Of a DNA stretch of 64,000 bases, positions 13,490-40,013 are shown piece after piece. Position 1 is the first letter of the stretch. Each line of letters opens with the position of its first letter. Where the stretch lies: the NCBI GenBank assembly GCA_902384795.1, contig CABMDC010000017.1, positions 1-64,000 of the forward strand, in the 5' to 3' direction. The translations under genes were made by a program, and so were the position numbers. The DNA comes from Candidatus Gugararchaeum adminiculabundum. GTDB lineage: Archaea; Micrarchaeota; Micrarchaeia; Burarchaeales; Gugararchaeaceae. The notes below the pieces were generated by a model that saw only the letters and a list, made by a program, of their open reading frames with translations, did no database searches and was not told where the DNA came from.

Positions 13490-13516
13490 TTTTGAAAAAA
13501 GTGAAAAAAAGAAGAA

Positions 13517-13626
13517 GAAAACGAGCGAGTGAACTTGTTTCGCGAGTCTCGTTTTCGAGGTTAACCCTGTTTCGCTCTGGATGTTGAACGCGTAGAGCGG
13601 CTCTAGTCGTACAGTGTGCGCTCTAC
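13517..13626 (+). repeat. Hairpin repeat element, copy 1 (A+B parts)
   Basis: GAAAACGAG/CTCGTTTTC arms, then TTTCGCTCTGGATGTTGAACGC, then GTAGAGCG/CGCTCTAC stem (13592-13599/13619-13626). Confidence 0.8.
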
Positions 13627-13667
13627 AGAAGAAAAGAAAAATGAAAGTAGTTCTTGTTTTTAACGAG

Positions 13668-20973: not shown

Positions 20974-22692
20974 CTAGATTATGTTCGGAATCGGCAGGTA
21001 GAGCGGGATGTTTCTCATTACCCATTTGTAAATTTTGTAATACAGCTTGTTGTTCTTCTTGATGACATCCAGCAGCTGCTTGAACTGCTCCTTTTCAGCA
21101 GGCCCGAGCTTGCTTTCGCTTATTTTCACGTGCTCTTTTCCGTCGATTATTGAGCGCTCCTCGATATTGCCGATTTGCTTGTTTGCCTGCGCGTACCAGG
21201 GGGGCAGGGTGGATTTTTTCTTCTTCAGCGAGACGATGAAATCGCGCGTGACCACCGGGCGCTCGTGCCCTGTTTTGAATGCCTCGCGCCAGGGAATGGA
21301 TGCAGCCTCGTCTACAATCGCCTTCAGATCTGCCGAGGAGAAGCCAATGGTGCAGCGGGCGATTCTCCGGAAATCGATTCTTCCGGTCGGCCGCTTCTTG
21401 CAGTTGAGTTTCAGGATTGCTACGCGGGATCTGAAATCAGGCTCTGGAACGAAAAGGGATTTGCCGAACCTTCCGGAACGCCTGAGGGCAGGGTCCACGT
21501 CCCAGGGAGCGTTGGTTGCGCCGATCACGAGAACGTTTTCGTTCTTTGCTTCGACTCCGTCCATTTCATACAGGAGCGCGTTGACTGCCATTTTCAGATA
21601 TTGCGCAGAGCCGCCCATGTCCTCCCTTCTTCCTCCCAGGGCTTCCATTTCATCAAAGAATAAAATGCAGGGCGTGTGCTTTCTTGCGCCCTCAAAGATT
21701 GCGTGCAGGTTCTTTTCCGTGTTGCCCACATACATGTCCAGGATGTCCGAAATTTTCGCATTGATGAATGTGACCTTTGCCTCGCCTGCTGCCGCCTTCA
21801 TGATGAAAGTCTTACCGCAGCCAGGAGGGCCGTAGAGCATGATGCCCCCTCCTCCGAGCTTTCCGTATTTTCTCGCAAGCTCTGGCTGCATCAACGGGTA
21901 GACAATTGCCTCGCGTAATTCTTCCTTTAGTTTTTCCATGCCAGCGACATTGGTGAAATTCGCGTTTGATTTCACAATCAATTTTTCCACGTTGACCGTG
22001 CCCTGCCCCTGCTGGGGCGCGCCGCCTGTAGCGTCAGTACCGGGCGCGCCTCCGCCTGCATCCGGGCCGCGCTCCTTCTTTGCTTTCGCGAGCTCGCGGT
22101 GATTTATTGCTTCTGTGAAATTCGGATTGAGCTCGATTGCCTTGTCATAATTTTCTATTGCCTTGTCATAGTTCTGCATGTAATCGTATGCTAATCCGCG
22201 GATGTGCCAGGCCTCGGAGAAATTGGGGTTGAGCTCGATCACTTTGTCAAAATCTTTTATTGCCCGCTCGTAATCCTGCTGGCATGCGTAGGCCAGGCCG
22301 CGGTTGTAGAATGCTTTCAGATAGCGGGGATTGAGCTTGAGCGCGCGGTCATAGTCAACAATCGCCTTGTCGAATTCCTGCTTCCTATAATAGGCATCAC
22401 CGCGGTTGTTGTAAATGACAGGATTTCTCGGGTCAAGTTCCGCTGCGCGAGCGTAGTCCTCGATGGATTTGTCAAAGTTCTTTTTGTTGTAGTATGCCAG
22501 CCCGCGGTTGAAATAGGCCTCGGAGAAATTGGGGTTGAGCACTATGGTCATGTTGTAATTTTCAATGGCCTTGTCGTAGTTGCCCTTCTCGTAATAGGCG
22601 TTGCCCTTGTGATAATAGGTACGCGCATCTGTTGGATTGGGTTTGCCCTCGTCGCCTGCTGCCATGAAAATCACTGGAAACTGAATATTCAT
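20974..22692 (-). CDS. TPR-repeat domain fused to AAA+ ATPase
   Basis: Six TPR units (AYYEKGNYDKAIENYNMTIVLNPNFSEAYFNRG...); Walker A GPPGCGKT, Walker B ILFFDEMEAL, GATNAPWDVDPALRRSGRF. Confidence 0.93.
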   Translation of the reverse strand: MNIQFPVIFMAAGDEGKPNPTDARTYYHKGNAYYEKGNYDKAIENYNMTIVLNPNFSEAYFNRGLAYYNKKNFDKSIEDYARAAELDPRNPVIYNNRGDAYYRKQEFDKAIVDYDRALKLNPRYLKAFYNRGLAYACQQDYERAIKDFDKVIELNPNFSEAWHIRGLAYDYMQNYDKAIENYDKAIELNPNFTEAINHRELAKAKKERGPDAGGGAPGTDATGGAPQQGQGTVNVEKLIVKSNANFTNVAGMEKLKEELREAIVYPLMQPELARKYGKLGGGGIMLYGPPGCGKTFIMKAAAGEAKVTFINAKISDILDMYVGNTEKNLHAIFEGARKHTPCILFFDEMEALGGRREDMGGSAQYLKMAVNALLYEMDGVEAKNENVLVIGATNAPWDVDPALRRSGRFGKSLFVPEPDFRSRVAILKLNCKKRPTGRIDFRRIARCTIGFSSADLKAIVDEAASIPWREAFKTGHERPVVTRDFIVSLKKKKSTLPPWYAQANKQIGNIEERSIIDGKEHVKISESKLGPAEKEQFKQLLDVIKKNNKLYYKIYKWVMRNIPLYLPIPNII

Positions 22693-22717
22693 GGTCTATA
22701 TATAAATAAATTCCCTA

Positions 22718-22822
22718 GTAGAGCGCACTTTGCCTTAACAGAGCCGCTCTACCCTTTCAGTATCCGGAGCGAAACTGGAACTGCTTCGGATGAAGCGCTC
22801 GCGATTGCTCGCTCGCTTTCAT
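22718..22822 (-). repeat. Hairpin repeat element, copy 3 (reverse orientation, A+B parts)
   Basis: Core GCTCGCGATTGCTCGCTCGC at 22797-22816 (reverse complement of GCGAGCGAGCAATCGCGAGC); B stem 22718-22725/22745-22752. Confidence 0.85.
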
Positions 22823-22902
22823 TCTCCACCGCTCGACTGAAACTGCTGTAATTTAAAATTTGAGGGGCAAAAGAGAATCCTGCCTTCTCGAGGTTAGGTT
22901 AT

Positions 22903-32585: not shown

Positions 32586-32659
32586 AAATTGTCATTAAAT
32601 GATTTAATAGGAAACTGAGGAATAAATGGTGAGTGCGGTGGGGCAATCGCTCTAGGGTA

Positions 32660-32769
32660 GGATGAGGGCGAGCGAGGAATCGCGAGCCTTTCATCCGCGA
32701 TAGTTCCAGTTCTATTCTGGATTTTGAAACTCATAAGAGCGGCTTAGGGAAAACAATATGCGCTCTTAT
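32660..32769 (+). repeat. Hairpin repeat element, copy 4 (A+B parts)
   Basis: GGATGA/TCATCC arms around GCGAGCGAGGAATCGCGAGC (32668-32687); B stem ATAAGAGCG/CGCTCTTAT (32733-32741/32761-32769). Confidence 0.85.
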
Positions 32770-32780
32770 TAGGTGAAACT

Positions 32781-34400: not shown

Positions 34401-34427
34401 AGAGCCATAGGCGTATTTTATCTATTA

Positions 34428-34586
34428 GCGGAGGAGGAAGGCGAGCGAGTAATCGCGAGCACCTCCGCATAGTTGCGGAGGCATTTTCGGCCCGCAGGCC
34501 GAAACATGTTTCATCTGGAGCAGTTTTTGTTTCGCTGTGGATATTGAACGCGTAGAGCGGCTCTGTTAAGGCAATGTGCGCTCTAC
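34428..34586 (+). repeat. Hairpin repeat element, copy 2 (A+B parts with extra hairpins)
   Basis: Core GCGAGCGAGTAATCGCGAGC at 34441-34460; arms GCGGAGG/CCTCCGC; extra TTTCGGCC-CGCA-GGCCGAAA; B stem 34552-34559/34579-34586. Confidence 0.87.
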
Positions 34587-34637
34587 AAATCTATTTATAT
34601 TGCGACTTAGTGAAACCATCAACAGTTGGTGATTCTA

Positions 34638-39658: not shown

Positions 39659-39731
39659 AGCCCCGTCGTCTAGTGGTCAAGGATCGGAGGCTCTGAACCT
39701 CTTGACATCGGTTCGAATCCGGTCGGGGCTA
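39659..39731 (+). tRNA. tRNA-Gln (anticodon CUG)
   Basis: Acceptor AGCCCCG/CGGGGCT, anticodon arm GGAGG-CTCTGAA-CCTCT, T arm with GGTTCGAATCC. Confidence 0.93.
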
Positions 39732-39741
39732 TAGTTTTTTT
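39722..39741 (+). repeat. Direct repeat left copy (tRNA-Gln 3' end)
   Basis: GTCGGGGCTATAGTTTTTTT. Confidence 0.7.
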
Positions 39742-39756
39742 ATGCGAACTAGTTTA

Positions 39757-39792
39757 GGAAAAAAGAGAGCGAGTAATCGCGAGCTTTTTTCC
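39757..39792 (+). repeat. Hairpin repeat element, copy 5 (A part only)
   Basis: GGAAAAAA-GAGAGCGAGTAATCGCGAGC-TTTTTTCC. Confidence 0.8.
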
Positions 39793-39862
39793 CGCGGTTT
39801 CAGGTTTTGCATTTTATGATGAGGGGTGTGGGGCTTTGAATGTAGAACATGGTTGGCCCTGC

Positions 39863-39882
39863 GTCGGGGCTATAGTTTTTTT
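39863..39882 (+). repeat. Direct repeat right copy of tRNA-Gln 3' end
   Basis: GTCGGGGCTATAGTTTTTTT, 141 bp after the left copy. Confidence 0.7.
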
Positions 39883-40013
39883 TTGCTGTGCGCAAGCATG
39901 GCTCTTTTCTCTGTGTTTTTCCATGTTTTTAGGTGATTATAAGTGTCCTTATGCGGAAAGCTTTATATAGCGCTTCGGGCATAATACAATGAAACACACT
40001 GTCAGTGATATCT

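Follow-up and report, generated by a model that had tools for sequence, protein, structure and literature searches.

The repeat copies in the window

The window, that is, the whole stretch of 64,000 nt that was analysed, carries archaeal genes, among them those for an archaeal topoisomerase I and a CdvC/CDC48-like ATPase, and five copies of a repeat of ≈ 115 nt, in which two hairpins, A and B, are joined by a partly conserved linker (Table 1). The protein encoded at 20974-22692 on the minus strand matches both TPR-repeat and FtsH/CDC48/CdvC-type AAA ATPase models and may be a fusion. The 20-mer GCGAGCGAGNAATCGCGAGC, by which hairpin A had been recognized in a preliminary description of this DNA, is present at 34441-34460, 32668-32687 and, on the minus strand, 22797-22816, and with one change at 39765-39784; dinucleotide shuffles yield a mean of 0.02 matches. 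The B part was likewise found at the positions assigned to it in that description, and the outer arms read as quoted there (GCGGAGG/CCTCCGC, GGATGA/TCATCC, ATGAA/TTCAT, GGAAAAAA/TTTTTTCC, and GAAAACGAG/CTCGTTTTC). The copy at 39757 had been taken to consist of hairpin A only; it does continue into hairpin B at ≈ 39825-39864, the sequence of which is of a second type (GGGGC../..GGCCC), and the same two-hairpin plan is thus present in all five copies, which are also the matches of the covariance model in the window. The apical loops had been described as GNRA, which is correct for the copies with GTAA, GGAA, and GCAA; GTTA and GCCA occur as well, hence the looser formula GNNA, and other copies have longer apical loops, such as ACTTGTT. 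The insert of ≈ 50 nt in copy 4 recurs identically in one other copy, located on contig 7.

Table 1. Hairpins, insert, and flanking direct repeats of the five copies in the window.
Feature	Position	Strand	Remarks
Copy 1, hairpin A	13517..13556	+	Outer stem GAAAACGAG/CTCGTTTTC, GA/GA loop, variant apical loop; model match 13511-13629, 77.9 bits
Copy 1, hairpin B	13592..13626	+	GTAGAGCG/CGCTCTAC
Copy 2, hairpin A	22788..22826	-	GCAA loop; model match 22715-22830, 108.9 bits
Copy 2, hairpin B	22718..22753	-	Lies just 5′ of both a TATA-like box and the minus-strand gene start (gene 20974-22692)
Copy 3, hairpin A	32660..32695	+	GGAA loop; model match 32654-32771, 113.4 bits
Copy 3, hairpin B	32732..32769	+	ATAAGAGCG/CGCTCTTAT, stem altered yet complementary
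Copy 4, hairpin A	34428..34468	+	GUAA loop, alternative outer stem GCGGAGG/CCTCCGC; model match 34427-34589, 57.3 bits
Copy 4, extra two-hairpin insert, ≈ 50 nt	34462..34510	+	Identical in the copy at G000:C7:140082-140244 of the source genome
Copy 4, hairpin B	34552..34586	+	
Copy 5, hairpin A	39757..39793	+	GUAA loop, A/T outer stem; model match 39751-39865, 89.9 bits
Copy 5, hairpin B	39825..39864	+	Type 2 (GGGGC../..GGCCC)
Copy 5, direct repeat, left	39722..39745	+	tRNA-Gln 3′ end and T-run
Copy 5, direct repeat, right	39863..39886	+	Begins where hairpin B ends; 23/24 identical to left

Fold and covariation

In an alignment of 43 matches (A2), 92.9% of the stem cells pair, compared to 73.2 ± 0.9% with the 3′ letters re-dealt and at most 51% when slid, and two-sided changes occur at 20 of the 23 stem pairs, pairing counts that are biased towards the covariance model to which A2 was fitted; in a MAFFT alignment made without the model, two-sided changes are already present at 13 of 23 pairs. 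The covariation score amounts to 0.526, compared to 0.180 ± 0.011 after shuffling and at most 0.118 when slid. Significant covariation, on which the preliminary description had staked its proposal of a structured RNA, is therefore present, with most stem pairs changed on both sides and none of 500 shuffles equal to any pairing or covariation measure. The stem of hairpin B ranges from GTAGAGCG/CGCTCTAC through ATAAGAGCG/CGCTCTTAT and TACAAGCG/CGCTTGTA to CGGGGCC/GGCCCCG. Variation in hairpin A extends to the outer stem, the apical stem, and the loop and leaves the tandem GA/GA loop near-constant; it is this internal loop, and not a GNRA loop, that represents the constant feature of the hairpin. 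The repeat family thus provides a clear example of extensive compensatory change within the genome of one small archaeon.

Among the stem cells, G-U outnumbers A-C by 38 to 13 with two poorly paired positions excluded and by 47 to 35 with them included, a comparison whose p-value is a guide only, because the stem cells are not independent. In view of this excess of G-U, the plus strand is likely the folding strand. Folding energy alone separated neither the two strands nor all copies from their shuffles (z from -4.0 to -0.3), and a search for a further helix in the linker by covariation did not establish one. The element belongs to no RNA-family library; in Rfam 15, no family reaches the gathering score or E ≤ 1 with it, the search returning just tRNAs and one weak match over a tRNA.

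Distribution within and beyond the source genome

The genome that holds the window (1.47 Mb, draft, 93% complete) contains the 20-mer of hairpin A 25 times within two mismatches, compared to zero for the reversed control. A covariance model built from 20 copies finds ≈ 40 copies in this genome at E < 1e-4, scattered over many contigs and in both orientations, such that further copies, for which the preliminary description had proposed a search of this kind, do exist. The closest pair of copies is only 86% identical (median 58%), and a recent burst has thus not taken place.

Sure copies were found in only one other genome, G122, which belongs to another family, among 148 relatives and then 296 genomes of the class, a set that contains no other member of the source's own family; the same-order relatives searched gave no match. 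G122 (84% complete) holds three divergent copies, the count having been raised to three by a pattern search, and the element is present in this distant genome either independently or by transfer. Weak model matches in G120, G023, G032, G060, G092, and G124 were dropped on account of poor stem match or single low scores, and one plausible A hairpin near a tRNA-Ser in G095, lacking B, was not counted as a sure copy. The exact 20-mer gave three single matches across the genome collection, all in unrelated bacteria and taken as chance. Searches of viral contigs, plasmids, and phages gave no match. In the literature on DPANN archaea and Micrarchaeota, a search found no such repeats.

Two further repeats were noticed. 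A second family consists of double-hairpin inserts of the form GATTT-stem-AAATGCGCCCATTT-stem-AAATCGGG, the stems of which differ per copy (L097:3940-4060, L101:≈ 4063, L110:≈ 1450-1530, L108:4360, and L090:4299); those in L097, L101, and L110 are nested within copies of the A-B element. Hairpins of the form GGRTTCGACCAGCCTTTTCTTT..AAAGAAAAGG, located near tRNA or tRNA-like 3′ ends (L083:3990, L090:4244, and L108:4308), represent a third repeat.

Junctions with genes and flanking direct repeats

The right end of the element is exact and is located at the base of hairpin B. For 12 of the 13 convergent protein genes that adjoin the B end, the stop codon (TAG or TAA) falls within the final bases of the B stem (p ≈ 2e-5 under random reading frames), and for the CorA and LSM genes found at this end, the matches reach the end of their Pfam profiles. 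Several copies directly adjoin tRNA 3′ ends, and of the three copies in G122, two adjoin tRNA 3′ ends and one a GTPase stop codon. A bias of position, the lack of which would have counted against the preliminary description, is thus present in the form of a bias to gene 3′ ends. The orientations of the flanking genes are mixed (12 '--', 12 '++', 9 '-+', and 5 '+-'), as derived from simple gene calls made for this analysis, with distances to starts less certain than those to stops. In addition, tRNA-like 3′ halves that were not called by ARAGORN were noticed in L109 beside the element at 282-399 (contig 22) and, in L097 and L090, beside B ends; in the one in L109, the T loop seems to be interrupted by an insert, which may be an intron.

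In 9 of 43 copies, the left flank matches the right one with a score of at least 9, compared to 0.38 expected from mismatched flanks, and the sum of flank matches was reached by none of 2000 derangements; one of the nine, L083, is probably due to chance, as its left repeat copy lies 111 nt away. In the convincing cases, the right repeat begins no more than 2 nt from the B end. In about eight copies, the flanking direct repeat starts immediately past B and frequently represents the duplicated 3′ end of a tRNA or a gene; the repeats vary in length (≈ 8-33 nt), as does the distance on the A side, and in four tRNA cases they begin at about one point, the junction of T arm and acceptor stem as read from the sequences. 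The gene end MQAVDALRFE* at C1:14909 is present twice, with differences at 7 of 33 bases, as is MKPIGTAK at C1:124824, with differences at 3 of 24; all of these differences are synonymous. Had the right copy become non-functional immediately, its changes would not have been confined to synonymous ones; hence, either a divergent allele later replaced the gene body by exchange, or the element brought the gene end with it. Target duplications were sought at the copies adjoining convergent genes and none were found. The B end is often fused to a gene 3′ end in one of two ways, with the stop codon within B or with the gene end duplicated across the element.

Mobility or host function

The preliminary interpretation was that of a structured or RNA-capable repeat, possibly a non-autonomous mobile or a regulatory element. 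Its first two parts agree with the covariation, the dispersal in both orientations, and the flanking direct repeats; a regulatory role draws no support from position, the flanking-gene orientations being mixed. According to the best reading of these data, the repeat is probably a mobile element that is bounded by hairpins, lacks autonomy, and has its insertion sites at gene 3′ ends. Its mobilization would occur in trans, in the form of a folded single strand. Mobility is favoured by the dispersal, the mixed orientation, the flanking repeats, the derived ≈ 50-nt insert common to two unlinked copies, and the patchy distribution, with two sure genomes among ≈ 300 of the class. The element of ≈ 115 nt would have multiplied within the source genome by means of an enzyme supplied in trans, which would recognize the folded plus strand, namely the GA/GA loop of hairpin A, and hairpin B, as single-stranded DNA or RNA. 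The B end would then be joined to DNA at gene 3′ ends, and the need of active copies to fold in order to move would account for the covarying stems. On the other hand, near-identical copies are lacking, direct repeats of varying length occur in a minority of copies, and the synonymous-only differences do not fit a simple target-site duplication unless a later allele exchange or an imported end is invoked.

An autonomous partner was not found either, in searches for RVT_1, Y1 transposases, and recombinases. The RVT_1 search of the draft genomes G000 (the source), G122, and G095 (84-93% complete) gave no match. The source genome has one Y1_Tnp gene (C1:140020), in a 3.3-kb locus without a match to A or B, and no Y1 transposase was found in G122, the draft being 84% complete. 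One tyrosine recombinase, XerA-like and encoded at C7:54335, reaches 110 bits with the XerA model (cut-off 220) and 53 with the integron integrase model (cut-off 265).

Because the copies are not near-identical, a function at the RNA level of the host has to be considered, albeit as an unlikely alternative. The repeat would then be a 3′-end or intergenic structure, such as a terminator, a stabilizer, or a protein-binding site, selected at each locus, and covariation and gene-end position would reflect a present function. Strong covariation among old and divergent copies, a folding strand that is the plus strand, an element end that in two lineages exactly adjoins stop codons and tRNA 3′ ends, and the near-invariant GA/GA loop, a putative binding site, are all in line with such a role. 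It is difficult to reconcile with the inconsistent orientation to flanking genes, including nine copies between divergent genes, with gene-end duplications at the flanks, which are unexpected for a static element, and with the lack of a match in the same-order relatives searched and in Rfam.

As to the route of a mobile element, it is quite improbable that a small DNA carrying a gene 3′ end together with A-B recombines into the same gene in the manner of tRNA- or icd-type integration, the imported end restoring the gene and displacing the resident one. The duplication of tRNA and protein-gene ends directly after B would be explained, the exclusively synonymous differences look as if the left copy came from another lineage, and the sole tyrosine recombinase is nearest to the archaeal XerA and integron integrase models; yet its match stays under the model cut-off, most copies lack a duplication, and an element of ≈ 150 nt that is otherwise shared would have to carry a different attachment sequence for every target. 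Eukaryotic SINEs are small structured-RNA elements with an exact 3′ end and flanking duplications of variable length. A SINE-like retroelement, an RNA of ≈ 115 nt on which target-primed reverse transcription starts at the 3′ (B) end, predicts a 3′ end that is exact, a 5′ end that is ragged, and variable target duplications, which are seen in ≈ 8 of 43 copies and not in the others, and would accommodate the tolerance of G-U on the plus strand and a B-only remnant at C1:161067. It is very improbable, since few copies lack A, no duplication was found where the B end adjoins a convergent gene, and no RVT_1 reverse transcriptase was found in the drafts of the source genome and the two relatives; the element also differs from SINEs in the lack of any recognized promoter or tail.

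Comparison with known repeats and implications

The element works like the small structured repeats of bacteria (bcr1, REP), yet it is not assigned to any of the REP, attC, MITE, or SINE groups, of whose defining features those examined are absent or present only in part. An attC site keeps its fold while its sequence is free, and stands in one-orientation arrays near an integron integrase, whereas the present element has two hairpins, a variable base of hairpin B with no constant recombinase box, and copies on many contigs in both orientations. It resembles integron attC sites, including archaeal ones (PMC9668308), in a folded single strand that is kept while the sequence varies, in its place at gene 3′ ends, and in the presence of a XerA-like recombinase. 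REPs are palindromes of 20-40 bp with a GTAG (or CGTC) tag at one end, and some of the associated RAYT genes lack flanking REPs (PMC3733652); like them, the element is a short extragenic hairpin repeat of many copies, and the type-1 B stem starts with GTAG. This GTAG is paired within the stem, however, and is replaced in other copies by different bases, such as ATAA and GCGG, and the only Y1_Tnp locus of the genome lacks the repeat. The ends of the element are two different hairpins and not mutual inverted repeats, and its flanking repeats vary in length, in contrast to the terminal inverted repeats and fixed target duplication of a DDE-type MITE. The bcr1 repeats have a short fixed duplication, whereas the present element is archaeal, has an unrelated plan, is fused exactly to gene 3′ ends at one end, and carries flanking repeats of variable length. 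In its dispersal in tens of copies with a common fold, it resembles bcr1 and similar bacterial stem-loop repeats of 70-170 nt (surveyed in PMC2267715); a paper cited in that survey describes bcr1 with characteristics of mobile elements.

Two observations, namely that the element joins stop codons and tRNA 3′ ends exactly and that duplicated gene ends show synonymous-only differences, point to an insertion route that is not shown by the small repeats compared here. Within the reading as a non-autonomous mobile element, the repeat may tentatively, and with considerable doubt, be regarded as a new kind of archaeal mini-element, which would move as a folded single strand, fuse its B end exactly to gene or tRNA 3′ ends, and carry or copy the gene 3′ end such that the target stays intact. 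The ≈ 40 junctions represent a defined test set for how a tiny element spreads in a compact genome without breaking genes.
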